Positions 3,967 to 46,402 of a DNA stretch of 64,000 nucleotides are shown piece by piece. Position numbers and translations under genes: made by a program. Source of the DNA: Methylovulum miyakonense HT12 (lineage in GTDB: Bacteria; Pseudomonadota; Gammaproteobacteria; Methylococcales; Methylomonadaceae). Where the stretch lies: positions 2,378,690-2,442,689 of the forward strand of contig NZ_KB913025.1 of NCBI RefSeq assembly GCF_000384075.1. The letters are read 5' to 3'. The notes beneath the pieces are model-generated. The model saw only the letters and a list, made by a program, of their open reading frames with translations, was not told the origin of the DNA and ran no database searches. How positions within the stretch are numbered: the stretch's first letter is position 1; every line of letters begins with the position of its first letter.

Positions 3967-3979
3967 CGTTTTACTTACC

Positions 3980-9528: not shown

Positions 9529-9576
9529 GTTTTCCGTTCTTTTGTTTTATAGCGGGATGGGTTTAAGTTTTGCGGC

Positions 9577-26777: not shown

Positions 26778-26887
26778 ATGGATAGCCATACGGTTACTAA
26801 AGCCGCCAATGGTTACTTGCAACCTAAAACATCACTAACCCGACTGACCCTGCCAGTTTAACCCGCCCCAGGGAGATGACCGTCTTC

Positions 26888-26901
26888 TCCCGTTGGGGGA
26901 T
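26888..26901 (+). promoter_or_regulatory. CCC-GTT-GGGG leader element before the GHKL gene
   Basis: CTCCCGTTGGGGG forms a small hairpin. Competing pairings are GGGAGA (26871-26876) with TCTCCC and CCCCA with TGGGG. It matches the cores at 13697-13707 and 26231-26240. Confidence 0.45.
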
Positions 26902-26947
26902 CCGTCTGTCTTGTTTTCCTTGGGGTCATACCATGAGGAACCAAACC

Positions 26948-28549
26948 ATGAACATGACACAACTTTCTGTCAATCCGGAAAACCTGGTCAAGAACCTACG
27001 TTTCAGCTTTACCCAAGCCACCACGGTATTGGGCGAGCTGATGCAAAATGCCCGCCGTGCCGGCGCCACTTCCGTCAGTTTCGATTATGTTGAAGCCATA
27101 CGGCAACTGACAGTGAAGGATAATGGCGGTGGTATATCGTGCCTTAAAACCTTGTTGACCGTGGCCGAATCCGGCTGGAATGCCGATATTATCGAGCGCG
27201 AACACCCGTTTGGGCTCGGCTTTCTGTCGGCGTTGTTTTCCTGTGAGTCCATCAGTGTGGCAAGCAAAGGGGGTTATTTTACGGCACAGACCGAAGACAT
27301 CCTGTCATTCAAGCCAGTCACGATCAGCCCGGTGACGGATTGGGACGGCATAACGACAATTACCTTACACGGCTTGAAGCCAGTCGCACATCAAATTGAA
27401 GAACATTTGCTGTGTTTGGCCAAAGGCTTTCCGATTGGCGTCCTGCTCAATGGCGTAGCCCTGGGTCGCCTGCGGGCAATGGATGCTGGCCTGGCGTTTG
27501 TCGATACCGGGATAGGTGCCGTGTACCTTCGTGGCTTGGCGGACGGTGAAAATTGGTTGCAAACCAGCGACTGTTTTCATCTGTACTTACAAGGCTTGCC
27601 CGTCTATCACAGTGATCTGGAGCGTCATGCCGGGCATATCGTGCATCTGGATACGCTACGGTTTCGTGCCCGCTTGCCGGATCGGGACAAGCTGATTAAC
27701 GAGGCGGATGTCGTTGCCGAGGTAAAACTCGCGTTACAAGACGAAGCGCGGCGGAAACTGGAACGGCTGAAACAGCAACTGCTGCCTGCCGATTTTGTCG
27801 AAGGTTACGACACGCTCAGGGCTTACCGTTGCCTGGATCTCTTGAACGATGTGCCGCTGTTGCCCAAGCAAGTGCTGGCAACCATTCAAGACTATCCGGT
27901 CATGGAAGGCTGTGGTTCATTTAATCTCGGCATCTATGAACAGCCGGTGACTCAGGAGGATGTGCTCACTGGCAAAGTCAGTATCGTTGAATTGGACGAT
28001 TTTGACAGTGCGGGGGCGGCGCGGTGGATGTTTGCCTGGCAGAAAGAATTGATAATCTACCAGCCCGAATTAGATCGCGGCCATTGGCTGTTTCAACAGC
28101 TCGTTGACCTGAATGCACTGCCGGTGCGGATAGATATCATCACCGAAAGCCATCGTGCGGCATTCGAAGGGCAATGGGTCGATGGCGAAGCGGTATTCTG
28201 TGAACAATACAGGCTAAGTGTTGGCGAGGCGTCGGTGGTCATTGAAAACGACGCGTTTTACGACGGGAGCCACTGCGTGTTCATCGTGCCGAAAGGGGAT
28301 GCCTCCGGTTCCGTTATCGGGCAGGCGTCATCTTATCAAGACGAATGGGACAGTTTTAACGAGGCGGTCAAGGAAGCCGATGACTGGGCTTTCCAGAATT
28401 TTGTGATTGCCAACACCTCGTCCGATCCGGCGCAAGCCTTGCTGCGCTTATTGCCCTCGTTCAGTGGATGCCCGGCCTTGTTTGCCAAGCGGTTCCAGTT
28501 GGAATTGAACGGGCGTGGCCAGGTTGTCGCTGTCGTTGAAATCCGGTAA
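26948..28549 (+). CDS. GHKL-family ATP-binding protein of the ICE backbone
   Basis: A 533-aa protein with an N-terminal HSP90/histidine-kinase-like ATP site: ELMQNARRAGA (N-box), VKDNGGGI (G1), GWNADIIEREHPFGLGFLSALF (ATP lid and G2). A long C-terminal region without recognised motif follows, with an acidic middle. No kinase His domain or MutL/gyrase transducer was identified. Related ATP-binding proteins occur in SXT-like elements; the task is unknown. Start choice: ATG 26948 with GAGG 9 bases upstream; ATG 26933 is an alternative. A strong terminator follows. Confidence 0.75.
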   Translation: MNMTQLSVNPENLVKNLRFSFTQATTVLGELMQNARRAGATSVSFDYVEAIRQLTVKDNGGGISCLKTLLTVAESGWNADIIEREHPFGLGFLSALFSCESISVASKGGYFTAQTEDILSFKPVTISPVTDWDGITTITLHGLKPVAHQIEEHLLCLAKGFPIGVLLNGVALGRLRAMDAGLAFVDTGIGAVYLRGLADGENWLQTSDCFHLYLQGLPVYHSDLERHAGHIVHLDTLRFRARLPDRDKLINEADVVAEVKLALQDEARRKLERLKQQLLPADFVEGYDTLRAYRCLDLLNDVPLLPKQVLATIQDYPVMEGCGSFNLGIYEQPVTQEDVLTGKVSIVELDDFDSAGAARWMFAWQKELIIYQPELDRGHWLFQQLVDLNALPVRIDIITESHRAAFEGQWVDGEAVFCEQYRLSVGEASVVIENDAFYDGSHCVFIVPKGDASGSVIGQASSYQDEWDSFNEAVKEADDWAFQNFVIANTSSDPAQALLRLLPSFSGCPALFAKRFQLELNGRGQVVAVVEIR

Positions 28550-28574: not shown

Positions 28575-28615
28575 AAAGGGCGCACTTATCCATTGGGTAA
28601 GTGCGCCCTTTTTTT
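28575..28615 (+). terminator. Intrinsic terminator after the GHKL gene
   Basis: AAAGGGCGCACTTA pairs with TAAGTGCGCCCTT around a 9-base loop and is followed by seven T. It closes the 13.7-28.5 kb plus-strand ICE block. Confidence 0.92.
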
Positions 28616-29193: not shown

Positions 29194-32100
29194 ATGGGCT
29201 GGCAATATTCCACATGTTTCAAAATCATCTGTCGGTTGGTGTTGATCTCGTTTTATTTTCAGAGCGTCAATCCGGTCAGTTATGGCTACCACCCGCAAGG
29301 ATTTGACTGGCCTATCGGCTTTAGCGAAGCGGCGGCAGAACCCCCAAATTCAGGTGTTTCACCTAATGCAACAGTCAAGTCCGCTACCAAAGCCCCGGTT
29401 ATAGCCCCTACGCTTGCCCCCGGTGATTACCTCGGCTCCACCCCCGAAGCTAACACCTCCGACCCCTACATCATCCAAAAAGCCACCGCGCTTAACCACG
29501 ATCCGGCAAAAATCTTCCAGTTCGTCCGCGACCAGATTGGCAACGAAGTCTACAAAGGCTCATTGCGCGGCGCACGCGGCACCTTGTGGAGCAAGGCGGG
29601 TAATGCATTGGATAAGGCCAGCTTATTGGTTGCTTTGTTGCGGGTTTCCGGTATCCAAGCCCGATATGCCCAAGGCACATTAGCAGATGCGCTGAGCAAG
29701 CAAATCATCAATTCCATGTTCAAAATGCCATTGAACGTGGTGGGTTGTCCTGACGAAAACGCCCCGCGCTCAACACCCGACACTAATGCCGGTTTACTAA
29801 CGGAAGCACGTGGGCATTTCTGGGTTGAATACAATAATGGCAGCGGTTTTCAGGCGGTTGATCCCAATTTTCCAAGCGCAACAGTAGGCAAAACGTTTAC
29901 CGCAACGACAACCACATTCGCGGAAATACCGGATAGTTTGCGCCATAAAGTGACAGTACGGTTGAAACGGGAATTATACGGCCAGTTTGCCGGCATACTC
30001 GGAAACAACGACGCCCAAGACATGAAAACCGCACTGGAGCGTACTTTTACGACGGTGGAACTGGTCGGTAAGCCGCTCTCTATCGGGCATTTCGTCAATT
30101 CCTCTTCGGTGGGCGGCTTCGGTTTAAGTTCAACCACCAACACCTATTCCCCATATTTTCTGCTGGGTCAAGGCGATAGCGACATTAGCGACGACACCAT
30201 TATCCGTGGCACCGACTATCAGGAACAACTCACCAATTTTCCGCTGGCAAGCACTTACCTATCCGGTGTTTTCCTAGAATTTGAAGTGTTTGATGCTAAC
30301 GGCAAATCACAGCTTTATGAACGCACCATCGCCGACCGCATTGGTTACGCGGCACGCCAAAATGGCGGCACGAGTACTCCTACAACATTGACTGCTGACC
30401 AAACGCTGGTTACCGAAATGGATATTGTTACGGCGAATATTTTGCCGGGTTTGCAAGAGCCGTTGGCATTGAAACCACAACAGGATCGTTTGAAAAAATT
30501 GCAGGATCAATACAATGTCATTAAGCCAGTGCTGGATGGCATTCCATCTACGGGAGCGGAAACCGACGCACAGAAACAAGCTCAAAATAAAGCCGTGTCC
30601 ATAAGCAGGTCTATGGCTTCGGTTACTAATGAAAATATCGGTATGACTTTTTCGTTATCATCCGATGTATCGTTAGGCCAATTAGAAAAAGGCTACATGA
30701 CGAAAGCCTATTTTGCTTCCCCTCGCATAACCTTAGCTCAATCTAAATTGGACGGAGATAAATTTAGATTTTCGATCGACCTACGGAAAAACGATGTTCG
30801 TACCCACGGTTTTCCAGGACAAGTTGAAAATGTCGAATATCCGTTTGAAATGATGCGCGGTTTGATGGAAAGCTCGCTTGAAGGAAAGGTCTTAGCCGCG
30901 AACCTAGGTCAATCTATCATTTCAATAGCGGATGTTTTCTCTAACGTTACAGGCGATAACGGTATTGTTTTAATCACGCCGGATAGCAAAGAGCAAATTG
31001 CTTTGCTTCAATTGTCTGCAGATGCGAAAGCAAGGATAACCAAGGCAGTCAATTCAGGAAAAATAGTCGCTACACCGACTAATAATGTCACTATCAACGG
31101 ACAAGAAATTGTTAAGTGGCTTGAAACTGACACCGTAACTGGTCATACAATTAGTGTGTCTGAAGATGGAGGTCATAGTGAGTTTATTGAGTATATTGCA
31201 ACACTCAATAGTGCAATAAATAAAGTAGCATTCGCTTTTGTTGGAGCAACTCAAGGCTATGCGGTAGCACAGTTCACCTTTATTGGGTCATTGCTTAACG
31301 GTATTAACGATATTACGGAGAATACAGAAATCAGCACAATAATCAAGAAAGCCAAGCATGATGTCGGCGTTAGTTTAATTACATCCATCATACAATTTGG
31401 TATAGGGAAAGGGATAGATCGAATAACAGATGTAAAATCCTTAAAGAATCTTGGTCTTAAAGCTATAACCTGTGGATTATTTGGTGTGGCACAAGGAGAT
31501 CTTACTGTCGGCGGCGTGATTCAATGTCTTGTCAAGGAGATAGGAATACCTAGCATTGATGCTCATGATTTAGTTGAGTATTTCGACTTAGGTATGCTGG
31601 CTGGTATGGGAGCGGCTCTTGTCTGGATAGATCGAAATTTTCCCGTAGACCCTGTTGTTTTCCCCTATCTCTCTAGCGACCTAGCACCAGTACCTGCATT
31701 AATAACACCAAACCCTAAACCAGGGCTATCGCTAAATATCGCCACAGATACGCTGTTTACTTTCCCTGTTCACGGAGGAGCAGAAATCCCCTCTGTTTTC
31801 AAAGCGCAAATCCGCAACACTGGCCCGACCCAAGACACCTTTAAACTGGTTTTCAGCAATGTTCCGGCGGGCTTTAAGGCGCAAAGCAGTATTCCCACTG
31901 TAACCATTCCGCCAGGTGCCACGGCTGAAGTAGGTGTTTGTGTCAGCCCAACCAATGGTACTACGCCGCCAAAAGGCACACCCGTACCCTTTACGCTAGA
32001 CGTTTCTAGCACCAGCAAACCCAGTGTGAAGGCTACCGGTAACCAAAGCTTTACAGTGCCGGACATCCATTCGGTTAGCTTCGATTTAGACAAAGCTGCC

Positions 32101-35100
32101 GTCAGCACCACACCCAACAGCAGTTTTAATACGACGCTGAGCATTGGCTCAACGGGCAACGCCAGTGAACAAATCACCTTAAAAGCCACCATCCCCAGCG
32201 GTTTGCATGTCACTGGCTTACCTGCAAGCCTTGCCCTGAACGCTGGCGAAACTAAACAGTTGCCGCTGACGGTGAAGGTTGATACGGGGATTGCCATCGG
32301 TCAATCATTCGATGTGGTGTTAACAGGTGACTTGGCAGGAACTTCGCCCGCCATCCAGCAAACCGCCACGCTGCATGTTGATGTGCGCTCGGCTCAGGGT
32401 GTTGCTATCGACAATTCTATTGTCCAAGCATCAGTTGGTGGTAACAACCAATTGCCTGGCGTGTTAACGGATTTACGCAATACGCTAGACCAATGGAAAG
32501 GCGACCCTAACAACAAGAGTTTGTGTGAACGCGCCCGTCTGGCGTTGGATAATATTTATAAAGTCGCTTCGGGCGATCCGTTGTTGAGCAATTTTGGTAA
32601 TGACATCACCACACTGCGTAATCTAGTGAAAAGCTGTGATGTCACCACGTTGTACCCGCAAGTACCCAATGTAGTGACGGAACTGGCACAAACCAGTGCG
32701 ATGGGCGTGGTGGCAGAATTGTCGCCCAATATGGCGGCTACTCCACCCAAGCTTGCCAAGTCGGTCAACCTGACCTTGAAAAATCGCGGCAAGCAGCCTG
32801 CTTCGGTTAGTCTTGCTCTAACGGGGTTATCTGCGTCGGTTAAGGCGGCGTTATCTTCCAGTACCGTTACCTTGGCGGCTGGGGAAAGCAAAACTGTACC
32901 GATTACCTTAACACCTTCGGCATCAGGCCGTTTCCCGTTTAAGGTTGTGGCGACAGTGGCGGGCTTTAAACCCACCGCCAATGCTTATGGCTTATTGGTA
33001 AGTGCCAATGCTTCCGTCAATATTATGTCGGTCAATAGCTCATCACCGTTTATTTTGGCAGGCGGCACAACGCAAATCCAAGCCTCCATCGCCAATACGG
33101 CGGGGATACCCATTCAAGCCAAGGCGGTGGTGACCATTAAGGATTCGAAAGGCGTGTTGCGTTACCAAAGCCCGTCGCCAACCTTATTGGACATTTCAGA
33201 AGGCGATGCGGGCATTCCGTTTAACCTCGACAATATAACGGCGAAAGACTGGGCTAATGACACTTATACCGTGCAATTGCAGTTGCTGGATCAGAATAAC
33301 CAGCAAATTACTGGCGGATTAAGAAGCGGGATTTTGAGCGTCGGCACACCGATCAAAGCCAGCGCAACCGCCAGCCCTATCCAAGTGCCACCTGGCAATA
33401 GCCTAGTGACCACGGCTATCAATGTCAAACCCGCTTTCTCTGGATTGGGCGGGGCGATTGGCTTGGTGCCGACTCCGGCGGATAAAGACCGGATTAACTG
33501 GGCGGCGGCAAGTCGGGGGGCAAAAATACAAGTGACCAATCCTGGGCCGGCAAATGGGGTTCCGTCTTCACTGATTGATGAACTACCCGGCGTAGCAAGC
33601 AATGAATGGATCGGCGTATTGTGGGCTAAACCTTCTGGCAGCTATTTGGTAGATTTAGGGCAAGCCCGCAATATTGATACCGTCCAACTTCATGTTTGGG
33701 ATGGTGATAATCGGTATGCCCGCTTCAAAGTTGAAGGTTCGCTTGATAATAAAACCTTCTTTTTGCTTGCCGACCGTTCTACAGGGGAATATCGCGGTGT
33801 GCAAAAAGTCGCTTTTACCGCAAGGGATATTCGTTATATCCGTATCACCGGACTCTTTGACAGCCAAGAATCGTCTTTCTACCTTTATGACGAAATTTTA
33901 GCGATTGGTGATGATGCGGCAACGCCAGTCCCTACCCAAACCGTGGATGTCGATGCGGTTATCAATGGCGGGGCTGATTTCACTGTCGGCCAGAAAGTCA
34001 CGCTGAATGCCGGGATTTATGAGCTTAAACAGACCAGTGGAGCGGTGTCATTATATCCTGCTGACACTGACAACAACGGGCTGACTTGGGGTTCCCAAAT
34101 TAGGGTGAGCCTACCTGCTGTTAATAAAGATTATCTGACTGGGACTACACTGTATTATCAAACCAAAGCGGAAGCAGAAACGGCAGTTTTAGGACAAACG
34201 ATAAAGCTCTATCTTCCTGTCCATGCCGATGTGTATCTATGGGTTTCAGATAGTGTCCGTGAAGATAATCGAGGTTCAGAAACAGTCGAGATTCGGCAAA
34301 TTTCAGGGCCTAACGATCTGTTGCCTGTTCGGATACGCGATGCCATGACCCGAAGCGTGTTATGGGAGCAGGAAGATGTGGCGTGGTGGAATGGCTTTGG
34401 GGGTCAACCATGGACGCAACAACAAAACAATGGTTATTACTGTTCGGGTTGCCATGTGCAAACCCAAGCATCCACTGGCTTACAAATTTCCAAGAAAAAA
34501 TTGCCTGAATTACCGATTGATTTGGATTTACAAGAAAAATTTGTTGATGCTTATGCGGTTTGGCAAAACCCGGATGCAGGTTGGGTATCCCCTTTTCATG
34601 GTGGTGGTTACGCGATAACGCAAACCTCTTTGTGGGCTTGGGCGGTTTCCCGTTTTGATGGCGTTCAGTTTGACCGACTTGCAGGAAACTTAACCGCCGC
34701 TTTGGATTGGTTGATACAGCAAAATCCTGATGGAGGATGGATAGACGATCACGGTAGTTCGCAACTTTATGGCGATGGCGGAGGTAATGTTATTAGTGCC
34801 ACCCACACCGCCGGCAATATTCAGGCTCTGTCTAAGGCATTAGGCTATATGGTTGGCAAAAACGTCATCGCTTTGCCAGAAAACCAAGTGTTGGCAACAA
34901 ACGGACAAGCCTCATTCGATCATGATTTAGGCAATAAAGCCGAGATATACGGTTTCAAGACCATTGATAATATTACTGGGATAAAAGTCACCGTAAATGA
35001 TGGCTTCCGTGATGACGGGAATTTTCTGATAGAAGAGTTGCAGGCTTTCATTGGCACAACCAAACAAACGCCAAGTAGTGCCAAAGCAAATTTCTCGCAA

Positions 35101-38100
35101 ACAGGTTCTGGCATTGACCAAACGATAGACGGCATTGTCGCCGATACCGCAAACGGTTGGGCCTATGCCCCGCAAAGTGTCAAAACCACCCCTGCGCAAG
35201 GTTTGTGGGTGTTTAACACACCAGTAAACTTAGATAACCTGCGTATCACCCAGGCTGACGGTAATCGCCTGAAACAATTCACCATCGAGTACACCACCGA
35301 TGCGAACCCTACGTTGTCCAGTAAGTTCTTGCCTGTCAGCGAGTTGCAAGTGGGTTACTCAACCGCTGATCGGGTCAGCAATTATAGGGATGCCTTGATT
35401 CGTGCCGCAAATACTTTTATAGCGTCTGATTGGCCTTACACAAGGAATATCCGCACTGCCGCGCAAACGATCATCGGACTGAAATCGGCAATGCCGTATT
35501 TAAGTACCGATTCCGCCCAAGCGGCGGACATTCGTATTAAAGAGGTGGCTAATTATTTACGTAGCCAGCAACGCAGTGACGGCGGGTGGAAAGATTCTAC
35601 GGATGGCAGCAATGACTTTTCACAGGCGTTGCCGTCAGCCGAAGCTTTGGAAGCCTTATTGTTGGTGACCAACAATAGCGTCGATCCTGGCGTTATCGCA
35701 GGGGCGGAATATCTTTTATTGACCCAATCAGGCCAAGGCTCTTGGGCTCCGCCACCGGGCTTGGCAAGGGCGCTGGCATCAACGACTTGGGTGGAAATCG
35801 CTTTGCCCACCATTTTTGAGAATCTGGCATCGGTCACTCTGGGCGTTGACCACAGCATTCCGAGCAACGTATTCCCTGTAACAGGTTCGTTTAACCCCGT
35901 ACCTAAATCGCAAACTGCAACGGCATCGCACTGGGATTCCCTATTGAACTCGGATGCAAACGGGCAAACCTTCTCGTTCTTGTCAGACATACAAAACATG
36001 CGGCCCGGTGAAGTCCGGCAGATCAGCAATGCCACCAAAGTAAGTTTTAACAGTATTGCCGGAAAGGGGGTCGTCAATTTACCGCCCATTGTGGTCAATG
36101 CGAAACATATCTTGGCACTGACCCCATTCAAGCAAACGATAGCAGCCGGAAGCACGGCAACGTTTAATTTGACACTTGAAAACCCATTTGCCACCGCCAC
36201 GGATTTTGCTTTGTCGGTCAATGGCTTGCCGGATGGCCAATATGTATTGCCTAAGGCCCTTACTTTACTCCCAAGTGAAAAGAAAAGCTTTGAGCTGAAT
36301 GTTTATGCTCCGGTCAATAGTTTGGGGGGAGATGTTGATTTTGCTGTAAACGCTAAGTCAACATCAGGCACAACGGATACGGTTTCCGGCATACTCTCCA
36401 TCACCGAAGGCAAAAACAACCCGCCGCCTGATGTCAATTTGGGGGACTCCGCCGTCAGCCTGTCGTTGTTGCCTGCTTTAGCCCAAGCAGGGCAAGGAAC
36501 ATCCGCACAATACACGTTACGGGTTTACAACATGGGCGACAAGACCCAAAGCTTCCTATTGTCTTCGACCAGCGAAAGCTCAATTGGAGTCCGTTTAAAC
36601 ACAACCGAAATTGTTGTGCCGCCAGGCATGATTAATTATCGGGATGTGGCCGTTACGGCAATGCCTTCTTTGGGAACGGTCACCGGTAACCATAATATTG
36701 GCTTCACAGCCATCCAAAAATCGGACAACGCTATAAAGAATGTGGCGTCCGGCGTTTTGAATGTGCAGAAATTAGGTGTGAGCATTGCTTTCAATCAATC
36801 GACAGGAAATGTGGGCAGTATGTTCTCGTTGCGAATCACCAATACGGGGACTGTAGCTGATCTGTTTGACCTATTTTTGGGTGGGCCGGCTTCATTGTCT
36901 GCGACGTTAAGCCAAAAAAGCGTCAGTTTGGCAGCAGGGGCATTTGTTGACTTTAAGATCACCTTGGGCAAATTTGACTGGTCGCTACCGGGTAGTGTCA
37001 CGCTGGTTGGAAAAGCAGTATCCCATACCAATACGGCAGTGAATGCCAGTGATGATGCCACCATCAATGTTGCCGGGCTCAAGTCTATGAGTGCAAGCAT
37101 GTCCCCTGCAACCCAAACCTTGGCGACACCGGGGACTGCCAATTTTACTGTGCAGGTAAAGAATACCGGGAATATCGAAGATGCCTATTCCGCCTTCATC
37201 ACTCAAGTTACCGGGTCTGCAACAGCGACATTGACCGGACTGGATGGTAGTCCGGCACAAAGTATCCCCTTATTCCGCTTACCTGGCCTGGCCTCAGGAA
37301 ATTTAAACCTGTCAACCCGCCTGAATCAGCCTGGTACAGGCATTGTGAAGGTGCGTGTCAGTTCAACGACCAACACGTCGATTTTTAAAGATGTTTTGGC
37401 ACAAATTAACGTGCCCATCCCGAATAAACCGCCAGTCGCCAATGCCGGAGTGGATAAAAACGTTTTTACACAATCCGATGTAATCCTCGATGGTTCCGCC
37501 AGCAGTGATCCTGACGGCGATTTGATCACTTATTTATGGCATTTTGTCTCCGTCCCGGCGGGTAGTGCCATTAATGATACGGCCTTTGACAATAAAAAAG
37601 CCGCCAAACCAAAATTTAAACCTGATTTGGCTGGCATCTATCAAGTGAATTTGGTGGTCTCTGACGGTCAATTGGCAAGTAGTCCGGACGTGGTGAAGAT
37701 TACGGCAGCCAAGCCCAATATTCCTCCCAATGCTTTGGCGGGTGCGGATAAAACGGTTGCTTTAGGCAAGTCGGTAATTTTGGACGGCAGTGCCAGCAAT
37801 GACCCTGATAAAGGGCCGGCCGCCCTAAGTTTTGCTTGGAGCTTGAAAACAGAGCCCGAACCTGGGCATGGCTTTCTTAAAGATGCCAACAAATCCATTG
37901 CCGGCTTCAGTGCAGATGTACCGGGCGCATACACTTTGGCCTTACGGGTATTTGACGGCAAAGATGTTGGCAATGACACCATGAACGTTACGGTAACGTA
38001 CGACAATGTACCGCCTGTCGCCAATGCCGGAACTGACTTTGATATTCATCTGGGTCAAGCAGCGGCCCTTAACGCCAGCAGCAGCCACGATCCCGATAAT

Positions 38101-38673
38101 GGCCCACAACCGCTGTCCTATAGTTGGAGTTTTGTGTCCATGCCAACCAGCAGCCATCTTTCTAATGCGGCAATTGTTGCTGACCCCAAAGTTCCGTCTA
38201 AAGCTTCTTTTATCCCTGAAGTGCAGGGTGACTATATCCTTCAAGTCAAGGTATCAGACGGGAATGATGAAGCAACGGATAACATTTTAGTAAAAGTCTT
38301 GCCTGCCTTAGTCCTGGGCAAGCCAAATTTCTTGGCCAGTGTCATTAGCCAAGCAACTGTTACAAAAGGCGTTTACAAGCTAAATGTCCAGTTCACTAAT
38401 ACTGGCCCCGGTACAGCCAAAAACGTTCGCATTACTAATCTGGTATTTAGGACGCTTAGCGGTACGGGTACGGTAAGCCTTAATGCAACACTAACGGCAT
38501 CTTTGCCGCTGATAACACCGAGCGTCGACATAGGCTCATCATTCACTGTGCCAATAGTTGTTAATGTTGCCTCTGGTGTCCTCCGATTTAGCTTAACGGA
38601 ATCAGGGAATGTAGCCGATTTGAAAGGTGGAATCTATACATTCTCAGAAGTGCAATCCGTGATTCCAAAATAA
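29194..38673 (+). CDS. Giant secreted multidomain protein (3159 aa)
   Basis: Likely exported by an N-terminal signal (hydrophobic FKIICRLVLISFYF). In order: a transglutaminase-like domain (about 90-230; GNALDKASLLVALLRVSGI with Lys where catalytic Cys is expected, but GHFWVEY and VDPNF present); a region of about 600 aa with hydrophobic patches; NEW3/Ig-like beta repeats (about 850-1270); a discoidin-like domain (about 1446-1572); a CSGCH haem-type motif (1750-1754); alpha/alpha-barrel repeats like terpene cyclases (QQNPDGGW, QQRSDGGW; about 1760-2210); more NEW3-like repeats; three PKD domains (about 2748-3040); and a final beta domain. No sortase or barrel anchor is visible. It is followed after 21 bp by an autotransporter gene. 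The function is not known; a cell-surface or extracellular binding role is inferred. Confidence 0.85.
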   Translation: MGWQYSTCFKIICRLVLISFYFQSVNPVSYGYHPQGFDWPIGFSEAAAEPPNSGVSPNATVKSATKAPVIAPTLAPGDYLGSTPEANTSDPYIIQKATALNHDPAKIFQFVRDQIGNEVYKGSLRGARGTLWSKAGNALDKASLLVALLRVSGIQARYAQGTLADALSKQIINSMFKMPLNVVGCPDENAPRSTPDTNAGLLTEARGHFWVEYNNGSGFQAVDPNFPSATVGKTFTATTTTFAEIPDSLRHKVTVRLKRELYGQFAGILGNNDAQDMKTALERTFTTVELVGKPLSIGHFVNSSSVGGFGLSSTTNTYSPYFLLGQGDSDISDDTIIRGTDYQEQLTNFPLASTYLSGVFLEFEVFDANGKSQLYERTIADRIGYAARQNGGTSTPTTLTADQTLVTEMDIVTANILPGLQEPLALKPQQDRLKKLQDQYNVIKPVLDGIPSTGAETDAQKQAQNKAVSISRSMASVTNENIGMTFSLSSDVSLGQLEKGYMTKAYFASPRITLAQSKLDGDKFRFSIDLRKNDVRTHGFPGQVENVEYPFEMMRGLMESSLEGKVLAANLGQSIISIADVFSNVTGDNGIVLITPDSKEQIALLQLSADAKARITKAVNSGKIVATPTNNVTINGQEIVKWLETDTVTGHTISVSEDGGHSEFIEYIATLNSAINKVAFAFVGATQGYAVAQFTFIGSLLNGINDITENTEISTIIKKAKHDVGVSLITSIIQFGIGKGIDRITDVKSLKNLGLKAITCGLFGVAQGDLTVGGVIQCLVKEIGIPSIDAHDLVEYFDLGMLAGMGAALVWIDRNFPVDPVVFPYLSSDLAPVPALITPNPKPGLSLNIATDTLFTFPVHGGAEIPSVFKAQIRNTGPTQDTFKLVFSNVPAGFKAQSSIPTVTIPPGATAEVGVCVSPTNGTTPPKGTPVPFTLDVSSTSKPSVKATGNQSFTVPDIHSVSFDLDKAAVSTTPNSSFNTTLSIGSTGNASEQITLKATIPSGLHVTGLPASLALNAGETKQLPLTVKVDTGIAIGQSFDVVLTGDLAGTSPAIQQTATLHVDVRSAQGVAIDNSIVQASVGGNNQLPGVLTDLRNTLDQWKGDPNNKSLCERARLALDNIYKVASGDPLLSNFGNDITTLRNLVKSCDVTTLYPQVPNVVTELAQTSAMGVVAELSPNMAATPPKLAKSVNLTLKNRGKQPASVSLALTGLSASVKAALSSSTVTLAAGESKTVPITLTPSASGRFPFKVVATVAGFKPTANAYGLLVSANASVNIMSVNSSSPFILAGGTTQIQASIANTAGIPIQAKAVVTIKDSKGVLRYQSPSPTLLDISEGDAGIPFNLDNITAKDWANDTYTVQLQLLDQNNQQITGGLRSGILSVGTPIKASATASPIQVPPGNSLVTTAINVKPAFSGLGGAIGLVPTPADKDRINWAAASRGAKIQVTNPGPANGVPSSLIDELPGVASNEWIGVLWAKPSGSYLVDLGQARNIDTVQLHVWDGDNRYARFKVEGSLDNKTFFLLADRSTGEYRGVQKVAFTARDIRYIRITGLFDSQESSFYLYDEILAIGDDAATPVPTQTVDVDAVINGGADFTVGQKVTLNAGIYELKQTSGAVSLYPADTDNNGLTWGSQIRVSLPAVNKDYLTGTTLYYQTKAEAETAVLGQTIKLYLPVHADVYLWVSDSVREDNRGSETVEIRQISGPNDLLPVRIRDAMTRSVLWEQEDVAWWNGFGGQPWTQQQNNGYYCSGCHVQTQASTGLQISKKKLPELPIDLDLQEKFVDAYAVWQNPDAGWVSPFHGGGYAITQTSLWAWAVSRFDGVQFDRLAGNLTAALDWLIQQNPDGGWIDDHGSSQLYGDGGGNVISATHTAGNIQALSKALGYMVGKNVIALPENQVLATNGQASFDHDLGNKAEIYGFKTIDNITGIKVTVNDGFRDDGNFLIEELQAFIGTTKQTPSSAKANFSQTGSGIDQTIDGIVADTANGWAYAPQSVKTTPAQGLWVFNTPVNLDNLRITQADGNRLKQFTIEYTTDANPTLSSKFLPVSELQVGYSTADRVSNYRDALIRAANTFIASDWPYTRNIRTAAQTIIGLKSAMPYLSTDSAQAADIRIKEVANYLRSQQRSDGGWKDSTDGSNDFSQALPSAEALEALLLVTNNSVDPGVIAGAEYLLLTQSGQGSWAPPPGLARALASTTWVEIALPTIFENLASVTLGVDHSIPSNVFPVTGSFNPVPKSQTATASHWDSLLNSDANGQTFSFLSDIQNMRPGEVRQISNATKVSFNSIAGKGVVNLPPIVVNAKHILALTPFKQTIAAGSTATFNLTLENPFATATDFALSVNGLPDGQYVLPKALTLLPSEKKSFELNVYAPVNSLGGDVDFAVNAKSTSGTTDTVSGILSITEGKNNPPPDVNLGDSAVSLSLLPALAQAGQGTSAQYTLRVYNMGDKTQSFLLSSTSESSIGVRLNTTEIVVPPGMINYRDVAVTAMPSLGTVTGNHNIGFTAIQKSDNAIKNVASGVLNVQKLGVSIAFNQSTGNVGSMFSLRITNTGTVADLFDLFLGGPASLSATLSQKSVSLAAGAFVDFKITLGKFDWSLPGSVTLVGKAVSHTNTAVNASDDATINVAGLKSMSASMSPATQTLATPGTANFTVQVKNTGNIEDAYSAFITQVTGSATATLTGLDGSPAQSIPLFRLPGLASGNLNLSTRLNQPGTGIVKVRVSSTTNTSIFKDVLAQINVPIPNKPPVANAGVDKNVFTQSDVILDGSASSDPDGDLITYLWHFVSVPAGSAINDTAFDNKKAAKPKFKPDLAGIYQVNLVVSDGQLASSPDVVKITAAKPNIPPNALAGADKTVALGKSVILDGSASNDPDKGPAALSFAWSLKTEPEPGHGFLKDANKSIAGFSADVPGAYTLALRVFDGKDVGNDTMNVTVTYDNVPPVANAGTDFDIHLGQAAALNASSSHDPDNGPQPLSYSWSFVSMPTSSHLSNAAIVADPKVPSKASFIPEVQGDYILQVKVSDGNDEATDNILVKVLPALVLGKPNFLASVISQATVTKGVYKLNVQFTNTGPGTAKNVRITNLVFRTLSGTGTVSLNATLTASLPLITPSVDIGSSFTVPIVVNVASGVLRFSLTESGNVADLKGGIYTFSEVQSVIPK

Positions 38674-38694
38674 TTTTAAACCGGAGAACTTGAC

Positions 38695-41079
38695 ATGAAG
38701 CTGACAAATTTTAGTGCTCTAGTAACTGTAACCTGTTTGCTGGCAAACCATGCTTACGGGACACCGTTTACATTTTCGTTTTCCACATTGCCTTCTTCCG
38801 GGCAAGTAACAGGAAGTCCTGACCAACTTGTGGGATGGGGGTACACATTGTCAAATAAAGATAGTGTTAACTGGTTTGAACCAACTGATTTGAGTTCAAG
38901 TTCATTTACCGTCGGTGTTCCCGATGCGAATTATTTTGATTTTCCGATATTGAAACCTGGCCAGACGGTGACCAGCAATTTTGACCTTAGCAGTACCAGC
39001 GGATTATATGGGTTGAAAATTTATAATTCCGCTAAAGAAGGACAAACCGATAGCGGGATTTTTACTATTCGTGGGGAATGGTGGAGCGGAGACCCTCTGT
39101 CAGGGGGCACTTTTATACAAAATGCTGTTTTGCAGTATGTCCCTTTTTCAGTGCTCGTATCAAGTTGCGGCTCTTATTTGGGTTCCCAAATTGGCACAGG
39201 TAAATGTATCGAAAATGGCACGATGACGGTGGATGTCAATGATCAAAATGTTACTGGGACACTTGATGTCCGTAGCAAAGGTGGTTTCATTGACACCAAC
39301 AGCATCAACGGGACGGTAAGCGGTGTCATCAGTGGTGCTGGCGGGTTAACTAAAATCGGGCTGGGCACTTTAACGTTGACCGGCGCCAATACATACCTGG
39401 GCGGCACAACGATCAACCAAGGCACATTAGCAGTAGACGGCTCATTGGCTTCCGGTGTTACCGTCAACACCGACGGAACCCTACGTGGGATAGGGGTGGT
39501 GAACGGCAATACCAGCGTTGCAGGCCGATTGGCACCGGGCAATTCGCCAGGCACTTTGACTGTGAACGGTTCTGTGTCTATGGCTTCTACCAGCAAGCTT
39601 GAGATTGATATAGATGGTACTGGAACCGGCAACGGTGCAGGCAATTATTCTAGAGTTTTGGTGCAAGGGTCAGGTAATACGTTTACGGCGGCAGGTGATT
39701 TGCAGCCTGTGTTGCGGGGTATTACGGGTGATGCGAAGAATACGTTTAACCCTGTCATCGGTCAAAACTTCCAAATTGTGACTGCCACAGGCGGAGTAAA
39801 AGGTACATTCAATTCATTAACGCAACCCACAGCGGGATTGCCCACGGGAACGCGCTTCGATGCTTTGTACGATGCCCATTCCGTGCGTTTGGCACTAACG
39901 CCTAAATTTTACAGTGATCTGCCTAATATCGATCTGAAAGGTAATGCCGGCGCTGTGGGAACTACCCTGGATGCCATACGTCCTGCCAGCTTTGCTGCCA
40001 AAAATCCGATCTTCCAAGCATTGGCGACACAGTCAGAACCGCAAGTCGCCACAACCTTGCAACAAATGGATGGAGAAATCCACGCCGATCTGCTCGCCGC
40101 CAGTTTCAATGCCCACCGTTTGACCAGACAAGCCGTCTTTGGTCGTCTGAGTGATGTACGCTTGGGACGTTCATCGTCTATGACGGGTATCACCGCCCCA
40201 AATAACGAAAGCCTAGTTGGACAAGCCGCCAATAACGCCGCACAAAATTTGGAAGCGCAAGCCAATAAAAATCTCTGGGTGCGTGGCATGGGCGGCTTTA
40301 CGTCCACCTATGCTGACAGGCAAGCCAATGGGTTCAATGAAAGCCTCTACGGTGTCATGCTGGGTTCCGATTATGCCATCGCCGACAATTTACAATTGGG
40401 GGCGGCCATTGGCTATGTCCACAATCAGGTGAATGCAAACCAGGCGAGTAGCGGCACAACCGACAGCATTCAATTTTTGGGGTATGGACTTTGGCAAAGG
40501 AATACCGAATTCCTGAATTTCGCATTCGGTTATGGACGGGACAATTACACCAGCCAACGCACGGTCAATTTGGGCGGTAATTCCGGCTATAAAACCGATG
40601 TTGACGGCAATAGCGGTTCCTTAGACGTGGAAGCCGGTACCCGCAGACGCATGGGCAGTTACACTATTGAACCCTCATTCGGAGTGCGGGGTGACATTAT
40701 CAGCCGAGACGCTTTTAACGAAGGTGGTGTGGTGGGACTTAAAGCCAATTCGACAACGCTTTCTGCTGCCCAAACCCGTCTCGGTGCTAAATTTAGCCGT
40801 GGCATTGTGTTTGGTATCAATAAACGTATCACCCCGGAACTTCGTGCCTATTGGTTACATGATGAAGGCGATTCAATAGCCAGCCAATCACAAGCAACAT
40901 TACTAGGCCAGGCTCTGCGCATCAATGCCGCCAATGCGGGACGCGATGCGGCTTCTCTGGGGGCGGGCGTAACGGTGGAAGTCGGCAAGAATATTGCCTT
41001 ATTTGCAGATTACAATTATGAACACCGTAATGCCGCGAATGGACAAAATATCTTTGGTGGGGTGAGATTGAGTTGGTAA
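38695..41079 (+). CDS. Autotransporter (type Va) outer-membrane protein
   Basis: A 794-aa protein with signal peptide (VTVTCLLANHAYG) and a short passenger containing the autotransporter-associated repeat (TKIGLGTLTLTGANTYLGGT). The C-terminal autotransporter barrel runs from about 520 onward (NLWVRGMGGF, YAIADNLQLGAAIGYV) and ends in the typical RLSW. The passenger is small and lacks a recognisable catalytic domain; its first 150 residues are of a DUF-like secreted type. The 21-bp gap to the giant-protein gene, with CCGGAGAA as ribosome site, indicates one operon, so the two may act together at the surface. Confidence 0.88.
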   Translation: MKLTNFSALVTVTCLLANHAYGTPFTFSFSTLPSSGQVTGSPDQLVGWGYTLSNKDSVNWFEPTDLSSSSFTVGVPDANYFDFPILKPGQTVTSNFDLSSTSGLYGLKIYNSAKEGQTDSGIFTIRGEWWSGDPLSGGTFIQNAVLQYVPFSVLVSSCGSYLGSQIGTGKCIENGTMTVDVNDQNVTGTLDVRSKGGFIDTNSINGTVSGVISGAGGLTKIGLGTLTLTGANTYLGGTTINQGTLAVDGSLASGVTVNTDGTLRGIGVVNGNTSVAGRLAPGNSPGTLTVNGSVSMASTSKLEIDIDGTGTGNGAGNYSRVLVQGSGNTFTAAGDLQPVLRGITGDAKNTFNPVIGQNFQIVTATGGVKGTFNSLTQPTAGLPTGTRFDALYDAHSVRLALTPKFYSDLPNIDLKGNAGAVGTTLDAIRPASFAAKNPIFQALATQSEPQVATTLQQMDGEIHADLLAASFNAHRLTRQAVFGRLSDVRLGRSSSMTGITAPNNESLVGQAANNAAQNLEAQANKNLWVRGMGGFTSTYADRQANGFNESLYGVMLGSDYAIADNLQLGAAIGYVHNQVNANQASSGTTDSIQFLGYGLWQRNTEFLNFAFGYGRDNYTSQRTVNLGGNSGYKTDVDGNSGSLDVEAGTRRRMGSYTIEPSFGVRGDIISRDAFNEGGVVGLKANSTTLSAAQTRLGAKFSRGIVFGINKRITPELRAYWLHDEGDSIASQSQATLLGQALRINAANAGRDAASLGAGVTVEVGKNIALFADYNYEHRNAANGQNIFGGVRLSW

Positions 41080-41283
41080 ACGGTTAATTTTTTATGAGAC
41101 AGCCATGCGCCCTTATGATCCGCAAGGGGCAACTCGCCGGGAAGACACTTCCCGTCTACCAGCAATTTATGAATTTGGAAGGCTAGTTTTGCCCGCCAAT
41201 CAGAGCCAGGCTTAAGGCATACCCTAATTAAGCGTATAGCATTCCAATTATCTTAATCCACATTTTACAAAAAGGTTATAGAC

Positions 41284-41958
41284 ATGAAGATACATACACG
41301 ATTACTAACATCCGTAATGCTAGGGTTCGTTACCCAGATTGCCAACGCATTAGATGGCGCGCAAATTAATACCAGTGCGCTAATTGGGGATTATGTTACC
41401 AGTAACAAAGGTCTTGAAACCGTTGTGCCTTATTGGTATCCATCCGACTCTGATGGGGATGGTAAATTTGATGGACAAAAATTTCATTTTGATGTTTATG
41501 CACTAGGAACAACTAAAAAATTGTTTTCTACTCCGGATCAATTTTTTAAAACATATATTGAAGATTTAGGCATAATAGCTAGTGGTTATAATTTTAATAA
41601 CGCATTAAACATAGATATAAAGCGTATTGCCAACACGATAATATTATCTGCGGCAACCTACGATGTTGATGAATCTTTTGGTGGCAACAGGGCGATTTAT
41701 ATATACGCGGTTGATCTTTCCGTAGCGGGTAACACAGCTTGGTATAAAACCTATACTTCAGGCCAAGGCCTTATAGGAACAGGCATTTTGCCAGATATAA
41801 ATGGTAACGGTATAGGCGAATTATCAGTAACAATGTGGACATATAAGTTTTCACTTACTGGTGCTGTCCGTGACACTGCCAATATGGTTGTTTATGTTTA
41901 CGATGGTAAAACGGGTGAATCACTGGCTGCACCTAAAACCTATCCGATGCAGCGTTAA
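41284..41958 (+). CDS. Secreted hypothetical protein with Ca-binding-like loop
   Basis: A 224-aa protein with signal peptide (LLTSVMLGFVTQIANA). The mature part is beta-rich, with an acidic DSDGDGKFDG loop at about 57-66 and DINGNGIGE near 176-184, both like EF-hand/FG-GAP calcium loops. AAAGG precedes the ATG. The lower G+C than in the upstream gene is visible by eye. No enzymatic motif was found. It probably belongs functionally with the two preceding surface genes, but a separate promoter is possible in the 200-bp gap. Confidence 0.72.
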   Translation: MKIHTRLLTSVMLGFVTQIANALDGAQINTSALIGDYVTSNKGLETVVPYWYPSDSDGDGKFDGQKFHFDVYALGTTKKLFSTPDQFFKTYIEDLGIIASGYNFNNALNIDIKRIANTIILSAATYDVDESFGGNRAIYIYAVDLSVAGNTAWYKTYTSGQGLIGTGILPDINGNGIGELSVTMWTYKFSLTGAVRDTANMVVYVYDGKTGESLAAPKTYPMQR

Positions 41959-42751: not shown

Positions 42752-43057
42752 ATGTCGACCCTCGAACAAGACCTTGCCCACTTGAATTTTGAATACCTGA
42801 TGCTGGCACGGGAATGTGCCCGGAGCAATCCCTTGGAAGCCGCCTGGCGGTTTGGTGTTGACCCGGAGCAGATCGGGGAAATTGCCGGGTATTCCTTGGA
42901 AAGGATACGGGAACTGTCAGACATCGCGAGAGCCGTAGTGACGCTCATTCCGCTAAACACGTCACAAAACGTCTCTTTGGCATCCCATAGCGCATTACTA
43001 ATCCCCGTTAAAAAGCATAAGATGGAGGGGCTAAATGCCCCGCTTACCCGCCAATAA
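42752..43057 (+). CDS. FlhD-family transcription activator subunit (SetD/AcaD-like)
   Basis: A 101-aa protein. The segment LNFEYLMLARECARSNPLEA followed by AWRFGV matches FlhD (INLSYLLLAQRL...MFRLGI), and the next helices also fit. FlhD-type proteins dimerise and, with FlhC, activate sigma-70 promoters; in SXT and IncC elements the same pair (SetCD/AcaCD) switches on transfer genes. The location near int/xis and absence of flagellar genes favour the ICE role. GAGG precedes ATG 42752. It overlaps the FlhC-like gene by 23 bp. Confidence 0.8.
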   Translation: MSTLEQDLAHLNFEYLMLARECARSNPLEAAWRFGVDPEQIGEIAGYSLERIRELSDIARAVVTLIPLNTSQNVSLASHSALLIPVKKHKMEGLNAPLTRQ

Positions 43058-43628
43058 ACTGTCTGACATGGGCTATATCTGGGTTGTTGCCGATAAACTG
43101 TTCAGATTGGGCGCGAGACCTCCCGTCGTGCGCTCTTTGTGCCCTATCGGCAAAAAAACCGCGATACGCCTTTACCAAACCATCTACCAGCAATCACCCA
43201 AACAAGGCCTGTTGCCTTATGATCCCTACTGGATTGTCCGTTCTTCGGTGATCAATATCCATGCGTCAATATTCCTGGGGCTTTTTCAGGATTTCACCCG
43301 GCAGCAAAACCAAGACGGATGTCCTGCGGAGACATTCATTGCCGCCTATGAACTGTATTGCCGGGTAGTGGCACATAATCCTCATCCCAGCAAACTGGAA
43401 GCCGGGGTGACACAAGCCATTTTGTTGGACATTAACCGGGCATGGCAATTATCCGGGCAATTGCGGGCGGGTGAAATAGGGCTGGTCATTTGCGGGAAGT
43501 GCCAGGCAAGGCATGTGGTGCTCACTAAAATGCCCAAGCCTTTCCAACAATGCCCGATCTGTGAGGTCTGGGCTGACAAGTCGGGTCGGCGCCGATGGGT
43601 TACTGTCAACGCAAGGAAAATTACCTGA
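43035..43628 (+). CDS. FlhC-family transcription activator subunit (SetC/AcaC-like)
   Basis: A 197-aa protein with the FlhC plan: LFRLGARPPVVRSL near the N-terminus, GLLPYDPYWIV (FlhC GMLPFSTDWF), INIHASIF (FlhC NVHASMF), and the zinc site CGKC...CPIC near 150-175. It should form a heterocomplex with the preceding FlhD-like protein. GGAGGGG lies before ATG 43035. The gene is intact. Confidence 0.85.
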   Translation: MPRLPANKLSDMGYIWVVADKLFRLGARPPVVRSLCPIGKKTAIRLYQTIYQQSPKQGLLPYDPYWIVRSSVINIHASIFLGLFQDFTRQQNQDGCPAETFIAAYELYCRVVAHNPHPSKLEAGVTQAILLDINRAWQLSGQLRAGEIGLVICGKCQARHVVLTKMPKPFQQCPICEVWADKSGRRRWVTVNARKIT

Positions 43629-43700
43629 CCGGCTATCTGTGTTCATGGACAGTTTTTTGAAACCGGGAATGATTGGACAATCGCCTGGGGGAGAAAGAAA

Positions 43701-44297
43701 ATGTTTATCGCTGTTAAAAACATGACCGACCTAAAAATTCCCCAACCTTGCCATGGTAAAAGTTTGGCGAGGTTAGCCCGTGAATGCTTTACCAGTCACC
43801 AGGCCTTAATTGTCGATTTCGACGGTGTCGGTGCGATCAGCCAAGGTTTTCTTCAGGAATTGTTTTTGCCTTTGGTGGCGGAATATGGCGCTGATTTTCT
43901 TCGTAGCGAATTACAGGTTACTAACGTCAGCCCGGATGTTGACGAGGCCATGAAGTCGGCTTTCAACACCAGTGCGTTGAATCATTTCTTTGACCAACGA
44001 GAAAACCTGCTCAATCAAGCCGGTGACGGGGAAATTTATGAGCTGAACCTCGCCTGGCTGATCAAAGCCCGTGAATTGGCCAGGGAAAACGGGATACTAG
44101 CCGAATTGATGATGGGGATAGGCGATGAAGCGCTCCGTCTGGCGATCAGCCAGTTGTCCATCAACGATATCCAGCAGCTTGCCCAAGCCGGTTGGCTATG
44201 TTTTGCGCCGCGATTTACGGCCAACTTCCTCCAGGACTTGCTAACCCGGCCTCATGACGTGGTGGATGTGCTTTTGGGTTTGAGTGGCCCGCACTGA
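43701..44297 (+). CDS. STAS-like DUF4325 domain fused to FlhD-like domain
   Basis: A 198-aa two-domain protein. Residues about 18-85 match the STAS-like DUF4325 pattern (ALIVDFDGVGAISQGFLQELF). Residues about 112-175 are FlhD-like (LNLAWLIKARELARENGILA, then LMMGIG, LSINDIQQLAQAGWLCF), closely following FlhD's LPQMVKLAETNQLVC. GGGGGAG precedes ATG 43701. It overlaps the next, FlhC-like gene by 14 bp. This fusion suggests an activator subunit carrying its own switch or interaction module. The fusion is read directly; its role is inferred. Confidence 0.82.
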   Translation: MFIAVKNMTDLKIPQPCHGKSLARLARECFTSHQALIVDFDGVGAISQGFLQELFLPLVAEYGADFLRSELQVTNVSPDVDEAMKSAFNTSALNHFFDQRENLLNQAGDGEIYELNLAWLIKARELARENGILAELMMGIGDEALRLAISQLSINDIQQLAQAGWLCFAPRFTANFLQDLLTRPHDVVDVLLGLSGPH

Positions 44298-44793
44298 CCC
44301 GTGGGTACAGGGTATGTTCAAGAATTCTGCCCGGCAAGCATTGGCACTGGAACTGCTGAAACGTCATGCCAGGATCTCAATCGTCCACAGGGAAACCGCA
44401 ATACCCAAGCAAGTGCTCAGAGAAGCCTACCGTGAATTGCATAGCCGCTCGCCAAGTCCGGGCGCGTTGAAATACTCCACCCAAGGGCTGACACGGAGCG
44501 TGAGGAAACGCAAGGCCGTGACGCTGTTTGCCGTGTGCTTCCAAACCGTCGAATCACATAACCGGAAGGATAACCACCAAATCCAAAAGGTACTCGTTGC
44601 TTTTGACTTGTTCAAAAAGTTTTACCCGGACAGCCCACTGGATTTTTCGGAGGCATGGGTGGTTGCACGGGATCTGATGGCGAAACAAATTGAGGTCGTT
44701 AGATGCCCTTACTGTGGATCGGCAGTTTTGATAAATGGACGAGATGGCAGTAAAGAACGTTGCGATGTTTGTAACAAAGCAATTGAATCTTAA
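44284..44793 (+). CDS. Second FlhC-family activator subunit
   Basis: A 169-aa protein (GTG 44284; ATG 44314 is an equally possible start giving MFKNSARQALALELL). FlhC-like features are LLKRHARISIVHRETAI, a helical middle with SPSPGALKYS, and the zinc cysteines CPYC...CDVC near 140-165. It is shorter and more divergent than the first FlhC-like protein. It is translationally coupled to the DUF4325-FlhD fusion, so these two probably form the second complex. Confidence 0.78.
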   Translation: MARTDPWVQGMFKNSARQALALELLKRHARISIVHRETAIPKQVLREAYRELHSRSPSPGALKYSTQGLTRSVRKRKAVTLFAVCFQTVESHNRKDNHQIQKVLVAFDLFKKFYPDSPLDFSEAWVVARDLMAKQIEVVRCPYCGSAVLINGRDGSKERCDVCNKAIES

Positions 44794-45268: not shown

Positions 45269-46226
45269 CCCAGGCGTTTTGCAAGATCCGAAGCTGCAAT
45301 ATGGGTATAGCGTTGCAGCATGGCTAAAGATTTGTGTCCGGTGATACTGGCAACTTCCATAATAGAAAAGCCCCGTTCAAATAGCCGGCTTGTCGCCTCA
45401 TGCCGTAAATCATGAAATCTCATCCCCTCCACGCAGCATTGCAGGCTGCTTTGAAACGATGTGTCATGTCATCAATATATAAGCCAAACACCCGGCCGTC
45501 TTCGCGGCGAGGTAGCGCTGAAAGGGTCTTTTTGGCAACCGAGGATAGGGGGACATGCCGTACCGTTCCATTCTTGGTTTCCTTAAGGGTTACCACATCA
45601 CCTCGAATCATATCCCAACGGAGGGATGCAATTTCGCTGCGGCGCATAGCTGTTTCGATAGCGATTGTTATGACTGCGTTCATTTCAGGATTGAGATGTT
45701 CCCGGATGACGTCTTCTTCGCCAAAACAAAAGCGGCGATCTCGTGCGTTGTTAACCTTGGGTGATCGAACAGACATTACTGGGTTCGTAAGATATTCCAT
45801 ACCCCATTCTTTCCTGCAGATGGTGAATAAATGGCTTATAGTCGCCATCTCAACTTGAACGGTTCTTGGTGAAACTTCCTTGAGCCTGGCGTCACGGTAT
45901 GTGGCAATATCAACGCCACGAACTGATGCTAAATAGCGACAGCCAAGCGTACTTTTTTGAAGCAACATAATGCGGGAGCGCTCGCGTTTAGCACCTTTCT
46001 TTGTTGGGGTGATTTCTGTTAGATATCGATCCCAAGCTTCCGCAAGGGTAGTGCGTTCAGATTCCTTAGTACAGATAAAGGAACCGCGAAGCATTGAAGA
46101 TTCAATCTCAGTCGCCCAAAGTTCAGCCTCTGGACGAGTTGAGAATGCTTGTGATTTCTCAGGATAGCCTGTTCGACGTACGCGAACGAACCACTTGCCG
46201 TTAGATAGTTTACGAAAAGCTGCCAT
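45265..46226 (-). pseudogene. int: Tyrosine-type integrase with a single-base frameshift
   Basis: Phage/ICE-type integrase beside the tRNA. The first frame (46226 down to 45420) has an N-terminal arm domain (WFVRVRRTGYPEKSQAFST), a core-binding domain and the first catalytic arginine (ETAMRRSEIASLRWD). It then ends AAWRG-stop. The remaining catalytic part continues in another frame down to 45265: HDLRHEA, GHKSLAMLQRYTHI (His, Arg, Tyr). One base is missing near 45433: GCTGCGTGGAG instead of an expected GCTGnCGTGGAG (NAGVEGMRFHDLRH). So the gene is probably inactive, unless this is a sequencing error. Confidence 0.85.
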
Positions 46227-46315: not shown

Positions 46316-46402
46316 TGGTGCCTCGGGCCGGAGTCGAACCGGCACGGTGTTACCACCGAGGGATTTTAAGTCCCTTGCGTCTACCAATTTCGCCACCGAG
46401 GC
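46316..46402 (-). tRNA. tRNA-Leu (anticodon UAA), likely ICE attachment site
   Basis: An 87-base tRNA with encoded CCA, long variable arm, and anticodon loop CTTAAAA giving TAA. The integrase reads away from the tRNA 3' end 90 bases further on, the normal arrangement for a tRNA used as attB. The 3'-end repeat expected at the far end (attachment copy) was not found in the window. Confidence 0.95.

Follow-up and report, generated by a model that had tools for sequence, protein, structure and literature searches.

The 64,000-nucleotide stretch of the Methylovulum miyakonense HT12 genome analyzed here (contig NZ_KB913025.1, positions 2,378,690 to 2,442,689; hereafter, the window) encodes a giant protein of 3159 amino acids (aa) with an unusual set of domains. 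Related proteins were identified in other genomes (G numbers) and at other loci (L numbers). The gene and its parts, all on the + strand, are as follows.

29194-38673, +, giant protein, 3159 aa (from the list of open reading frames [ORFs]; domains by Pfam/NCBIfam)
29194-29340, +, putative N-terminal export signal, a hydrophobic stretch recognized by eye; CR..L...F..Q is common to the window, G111, G131, G149 and L034
29476-29865, +, transglutaminase-like domain, aa 95-224, with Ala138 (29605-29607) at the Cys position and His208 and Asp223 retained
29866-31743, +, family-specific scaffold, aa 225-850, shared in part with stand-alone transglutaminase-like proteins
33547-33894, +, discoidin/CBM32-like domain, aa 1452-1567
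34327-34851, +, predicted alpha/alpha toroid, first helical part, aa 1712-1886 (low-confidence model)
34441-34455, +, CSGCH motif, aa 1750-1754, then VQTQ
34864-35361, +, predicted beta-rich insert dividing the toroid, aa 1891-2056 (from the model; at the same place, G112 has a propeller-like stretch)
35365-35826, +, predicted toroid, second helical part with a DGGW repeat, aa 2058-2211 (SQHop match at 35476-35748)
35806-36228, +, trailing domain closing the exchangeable slot, aa 2205-2345
37423-38298, +, PKD-type domains, aa 2744-3035 (Pfam)

In the Pfam scan of the giant, Transglut_core matched aa 95-224 (E = 1.3e-9), the F5/8 type C domain matched aa 1452-1567 (2e-9), and K319L-like PKD domains matched three times (1.7e-29). 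SQHop_cyclase_C matched aa 2095-2185 at 1.3e-5 in the whole protein, below the curated cut-off, and at 2.7e-7, above the cut-off, when the module was scanned alone. The original prediction, made from the sequence without database searches, had proposed that transglutaminase-like, discoidin, CSGCH, cyclase-like, and PKD parts are combined in one chain. Every one of these parts was found; the accompanying claim that a lysine replaces the catalytic cysteine of the transglutaminase was not borne out. Ig-like spacers (FixG_C-type; Pfam/NCBIfam), the beta insert within the toroid, and the island context of the gene are further features absent from that prediction.

The transglutaminase of the giant is, judging by its sequence, catalytically dead, having lost its nucleophile. 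The window sequence GNALDKAS was aligned by eye with cysteine-bearing transglutaminase-core proteins encoded in the same genome (GVCRDLAH, GVCQDFAH, and GSCRDFAT). Ala138 falls at the Cys position and the lysine at 141, so the supposed replacement was an error of register. The cysteine is retained in 7 of the 10 transglutaminase-core loci printed from the window's genome. In all nine aligned members of the family to which the window protein belongs (the fused family, described below), the position is occupied by Ala (four) or Ser (five), and His208 and Asp223 are invariant. Stand-alone and RHS-type relatives that were read lack the cysteine too, with Ala in those printed and Asp in G133. A phmmer search of the transglutaminase domain against the PDB returned 0 matches, and the scaffold profile returned a single one at an E value of 0.15.

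The CSGCH motif, whose importance had been made to hinge on its conservation, is conserved. All seven toroid modules compared carry C-x-[GA]-C-H-[VI]-Q-[TA]-Q, four of them from fused-family members (window, G111, L034, and L035) and three from otherwise different giants (G112, G059, and G949), with the limitation that it was the motif pattern that led to G112, which is not an independent case; the window and the other five came through other stretches, those of the toroid for G059 and G949. The two cysteines of the motif are the sole cysteines in each 576-728-aa module (7/7), and no CxxCH of any kind appeared in 2000 shuffles of the giant protein. According to these alignments, one and the same CxxCH-toroid module occurs in two different architectures. 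With a module profile, 398 genomes of the phylum yielded matches to the window protein, to G949 (a partial toroid), and to the discoidin part of a protein in G905. Counting the CxxCHxQTQ pattern in DNA was dropped as evidence, as it occurred in 5 of 301 order-level genomes versus 2 for the reversed control. The five comprised the giants of G000 (the window's own genome), G059, and G112, an unrelated 431-aa protein in G074, and a site in G1281 that lies in no ORF of 100 aa or more.

The chain that follows the motif is, by profile and a low-confidence model, an alpha/alpha toroid with QW/DGGW repeats. Against the PDB, the toroid profile matched squalene-hopene cyclases (E = 1.9e-15), and DGGW/QW-type repeats and the toroid itself are shared, by profile, with the squalene-hopene cyclase/prenyltransferase families (PF13243, PF13249, and TIGR01507). 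The window module, however, lacks D-x-D-D and scores 26-32 bits against the 431-bit cut-off of TIGR01507, and the giant's toroid adds CxxCH and is split by an inserted beta domain. At the interruption, the G112 toroid has weak propeller profile matches (Vgb_lyase and SGL), and G059 and G949 align with G112 across it. A Foldseek search with a model of the central module (831 aa) found 28 chains at E ≤ 0.001, nearly all with discoidin/CBM32 domains, so that the toroid fold rests on the profiles and on a second-look structural alignment. The latter matched alpha/alpha barrels up to a Z score of 13.9 (cellobiose 2-epimerase; root mean square deviation of 4.0 over 245 residues), which lends weak support, since Z scores under ~13 are common for helical models.

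The other second-look neighbors of this model included drimenyl diphosphate synthase (Z of 12.9) and D-glucuronyl C5 epimerase (Z of about 11). Together with the epimerase match and the CBM32-like domain adjoining the toroid, they would fit a secreted enzyme whose alpha/alpha barrel, similar to an epimerase, lyase, or cyclase, uses a polysaccharide or isoprenoid as substrate, and in which CxxCH would be a metal or structural site and not a heme site. A common barrel fold is no proof of activity, however. Six of the seven modules, including that of the window, lack a D-x-D-[DT] motif (G112 has one DPDT), and the invariance of both cysteines and the histidine fits heme c. We consider the enzyme explanation rather unlikely.

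The motif can also be compared with GCGEQ, the thioester motif of complement and alpha-2-macroglobulin. Were C-H-[VI]-Q to act in a similar way (as Cys-x-x-Gln where an alpha/alpha toroid begins), the giant would be a covalent surface adhesin. The Gln at Cys+3 is invariant in all seven modules, and complement C4 is a marginal match of the toroid profile (E value of 0.03), but the C4 match spans the repeats and not the motif. Furthermore, Val or Ile, not Glu, precedes the Gln, and two residues that a thioester does not require, the first Cys and also the His, never vary. A thioester at this site seems highly improbable. No TED chains were present among the 50 second-look matches listed. Covalent heme c is the likeliest reading of CxxCH in these proteins, and the heme maturation gene for CcmE was found in six of the seven CxxCH hosts, namely, the window's genome and five of the other six.

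The giant belongs to a small family in which the transglutaminase-like domain, the scaffold, and the distal domains are fused in one chain. Of 151 relatives, four carry a clear member (the window's genome, G111, G131, and G149); among 369 class-level genomes, the window's own is the single one. A collection of 84,980 species yielded eight scaffold loci, L034 to L041. L034, from Methylomonas sp. LW13, is a full-length homolog with the same CxxCH-toroid module; the others come from metagenome-assembled genomes of proteobacteria (L035 and L036), Methylococcaceae (L037 and L038), Verrucomicrobia (L039 and L041), and Acidobacteria (L040). L037 and L038 are the same genes as those of G149 and G131, respectively, leaving nine distinct homologs. 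The L041 gene is broken in the assembly; its end was not placed, and its slot was left unclassed.

Windowed identity to the window protein revealed that both flanks are conserved, although in L035 and L039 the match is weak or absent at the PKD end. The central portion (aa ~1400-2200) is retained only in G111, L034, and L035 and is replaced in G131, L036, L039, and L040. Three of these four replacements (G131, L039, and L040) match the LVIVD family of repeat-propeller surface proteins (PF08309), which is absent from the window protein itself; the L036 replacement matches no family. The sequences show that the scaffold is conserved around an exchangeable slot, which holds the CxxCH-toroid, an LVIVD propeller, or another module. 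In 240 genomes of the phylum of L039, the scaffold search returned the seed genome alone at E ≤ 1e-40. Among viral contigs, one stretch matched a pattern, and no relative of the toroid region was encoded; five plasmid records matched parts of the giant, covering at most 13% of it. Within a limited literature search, no paper title named an architecture that combines a dead transglutaminase and a toroid in a giant protein.

In other relatives, the two halves are separate. G112 and G949 each have a stand-alone transglutaminase-like gene immediately behind the CxxCH-toroid giant, in the same orientation. The distance is ~26 bp in G112; in G949, the mechanically called ORF extends back into the giant, and a start just behind the giant is presumed. 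The surroundings of the transglutaminase relatives were assembled in 10 genomes, G059 being set aside because both genes lie at contig ends. In seven of the 10, the directly upstream same-strand gene matches the module profile: G000 (at 3.03 Mb), G010, G033, G090, G112, G120, and G139. G112 had helped to build this profile, and without it the count is 6 of 9. In G010 and G090, the match is limited to the trailing domain, and in G062, the matching gene lies one gene further upstream. Among the 178 ORFs scanned, the module profile matched solely these giants or those of G059 and G949, both of which had served to build it.

The profile built on the trailing slot domain matched five of nine two-gene giants at E values of 1.2e-4 to 1.1e-7 and two more at 0.002-0.005, with two unmatched; none of the 169 other ORFs matched at E ≤ 0.01. 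These E values refer to databases of 18 and 169 sequences, and the two weak matches fail the control limit when rescaled to 169. Most stand-alone proteins show two blocks of similarity to the fused family's N-terminal profile, the core and roughly aa 515-695; in the RHS-type transglutaminases, the match is confined to the core. A transglutaminase-like gene and a giant are neighbors in most of the related genomes examined. Most simply, the window gene would be the fused, one-chain version of this pair, the two forms being related by either fusion or splitting.

In G139 (L031, 3486-12534) and G033 (L029, 5762-14588), a toroid-type protein directly adjoins a long transglutaminase protein. The G139 toroid-type protein carries IPTL-CTERM, and its transglutaminase neighbor has RHS repeats and an AHH nuclease domain; the pairing of a toroid and a dead transglutaminase thus also occurs in a polymorphic-toxin form. 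The window's genome itself (L028 and L070; G000, 3.012-3.050 Mb) contains several transglutaminase-like copies, one of them fragmentary, behind a 2849-aa giant.

The G139 arrangement raises the question of whether the giant is a member of the polymorphic toxins with inactive transglutaminases whose toxin is missing or went undetected. Excerpts of PMC3482391 describe RHS toxins as having an inactive transglutaminase at the N-terminus, behind a signal, and the giant shares with the proteins described there the lost catalytic residue, the signal-like N-terminus, and the Ig-like domains. However, Pfam detects no RHS repeats in the 3159 aa of the giant, whereas the same library detects RHS_repeat in G139. 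No toxin domain was found with Pfam or NCBIfam at E ≤ 0.1, and in the same scans no immunity family was found in the downstream genes at 38695-41958. In addition, the variable part is not C-terminal as in the toxins; exchange affects a slot in the middle of the chain, with conserved sequence on either side. Membership in this toxin class therefore appears very unlikely.

Our preferred explanation, to which we give about an even chance, is that the giant is an exported envelope, recognition, or matrix protein and the one-chain form of a two-gene system consisting of a dead transglutaminase-like protein and a giant with a central head. The protein would be exported by its N-terminal signal. According to excerpts of PMC3482391, RHS polymorphic toxins have been proposed to be anchored on the surface by their inactive transglutaminase, via peptide binding; extending this proposal to the fused family, the dead transglutaminase may bind a peptide or an envelope partner and so anchor or position the chain. 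The Ig-like and PKD domains would form a stalk, and the slot would hold the working head, exchanged between lineages. In the window protein, the predicted head comprises a CBM32/discoidin-like domain and a c-heme-bearing (alpha/alpha) toroid split by the beta insert, and it would bind a glycan or a small ligand, possibly with redox chemistry.

Besides the rarity of the family, the provenance of G112, and the modest Z scores, several results weigh against this explanation. Upstream of the transglutaminase-type gene of G133 there is no giant, and the profile missed the giant of G070, a 2582-aa protein 47 bp upstream that was recognized by reading. The left-flank profile clearly matched G949 alone (9.8e-8) of the nine two-gene giants, the others being weak or matching elsewhere in the chain, and its one match among the 169 other ORFs came from the G062 giant, which is split, and lies in the N-terminal half. 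The structure models are of low confidence: the central-module model, from a 4-row alignment, had a mean predicted local distance difference test (pLDDT) score of 50.5, and a model of aa 60-850, from a 9-row alignment, had a mean pLDDT of 54.1 and gave no Foldseek match at E ≤ 0.001. As for the heme, no CcmE match was found in the G949 host, and none of the seven modules shares an invariant Met or second His as a distal ligand; some c hemes lack such a ligand.

Two genes follow the giant on the same strand.

38695-41079, +, autotransporter, 794 aa, with its barrel at 40273-41016 (PF03797, 3.8e-48); pairing with the giant not conserved
41284-41958, +, 224-aa protein whose N-terminus resembles a signal by eye; belongs to no Pfam or NCBIfam family

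The original prediction coupled the autotransporter to the giant in an operon and suggested that the barrel could help to expose or anchor the large protein. The first part is plausible: the genes are on the same strand, GGAG occurs just before the second ATG, and no terminator is listed in the 21-bp gap, in a consensus scan that gave no clear excess over shuffles (promoters, 15 versus 20.9; terminators, 21 versus 16.9; standard deviation, 4.0). The pairing, however, is not conserved. When the passenger and barrel were searched with tblastn in 12 stretches covering the nine homologs, with the window as the positive control, the best E value was 1.7; these stretches reach at least 3.4 kb behind the giant in eight of the nine, the ninth being L041. 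The passenger (aa 1-209) occurs in a single one of the 101 relatives searched, the window's own genome, and in none of the plasmid records. To describe the autotransporter as having almost no passenger was also too strong, as it has ~250 aa of its own N-terminal sequence with one PATR repeat; the barrel starts at aa 527 according to Pfam and at aa 281 according to TIGR01414. A functional pair in which the barrel exports, exposes, or anchors the giant is accordingly improbable, and the autotransporter is probably a co-transcribed but separate surface protein.

Upstream of the giant, the same consensus scan placed a 17-pair terminator-like hairpin at 28575-28611, behind the preceding gene. A 557-aa protein with a weak HATPase/sacsin-like N-terminus (Pfam/NCBIfam) and no match to a defense model is encoded at 26876-28549.

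The homologs differ from the window in their upstream gene. In five of nine (G111, G131, G149, L034, and L036), a gene for a small PEP-CTERM-like protein lies directly upstream. PF07589 matched in the four of these that were scanned at E values of 0.0026-0.027, below the curated cut-off, and TIGR02595 exceeded its cut-off in G111 alone. The upstream proteins of G111, L034, and L038 are mutual homologs with 42-56% identity, and that of L036 is homologous in the tail only. No PEP-CTERM-like upstream gene was seen at L035, L039, L040, or L041 by reading, without a profile run. An exosortase was found in 9 of the 10 host genomes searched, the window's included, the exception being that of L035. 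These upstream genes and the host exosortases fit a PEP-CTERM/exosortase envelope system, whereas the window's upstream gene is of another kind and the window giant has no PF07589 or TIGR02595 match.

The giant probably resides on a mobile DNA island together with an integrase, defense genes, and regulators. It lies to the left of the following two features.

45420-46226, -, phage-type integrase
46316-46402, -, tRNA-Leu(taa), the likely insertion site of the island

Further left are type I restriction-modification, Septu PtuA-like, Cap4-nuclease/STAND-like, and RecT genes, and FlhC/FlhD-like regulators are located to the right of the giant. The tRNA-Leu 3' end had no copy of at least 14 bases in the 39 kb left of the window, and its last 23 bases had no second copy with up to 3 mismatches in the window. 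The left part is rich in defense genes, with a Septu PtuA-like ATPase at 2347-4026 (PADLOC PDLC00293, E = 6.8e-194) beside a type I restriction-modification set at 4740-11994. A Cap4-nuclease/STAND-like protein with an LmuA-like N-terminus is encoded at 16154-18283, near a 613-aa gene at 19550-21391. At 43035-44793, an FlhC-like gene, a STAS(DUF4325)-FlhD-like fusion, and a second FlhC-like gene stand in a row and resemble the SetCD/AcaCD activators known from integrative elements; the fusion of STAS with FlhD appears unusual.

The function of the giant can be tested directly, because Methylomonas sp. LW13 carries a full-length homolog with the same module and has been mutated in published work (excerpts of PMC5874918 and PMC11072679); the epsH exosortase of this strain is reported to affect exopolysaccharide in the excerpted text of PMC11072679. 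More tentatively, and with considerable doubt about the whole, the giants may form a modular family of exported proteins with one central socket for different heads and with the dead transglutaminase supplied in cis or from a neighboring gene, one of the heads being a terpene-cyclase-like toroid with a single covalent c heme, split by an exchangeable sensor insert. If true, this would represent a second route to the diversification of giant bacterial surface proteins, in which a central head is exchanged between conserved flanks as opposed to a toxin tip at the C terminus, and it would add a new domain that joins a cyclase-type toroid with a probable c-type heme.

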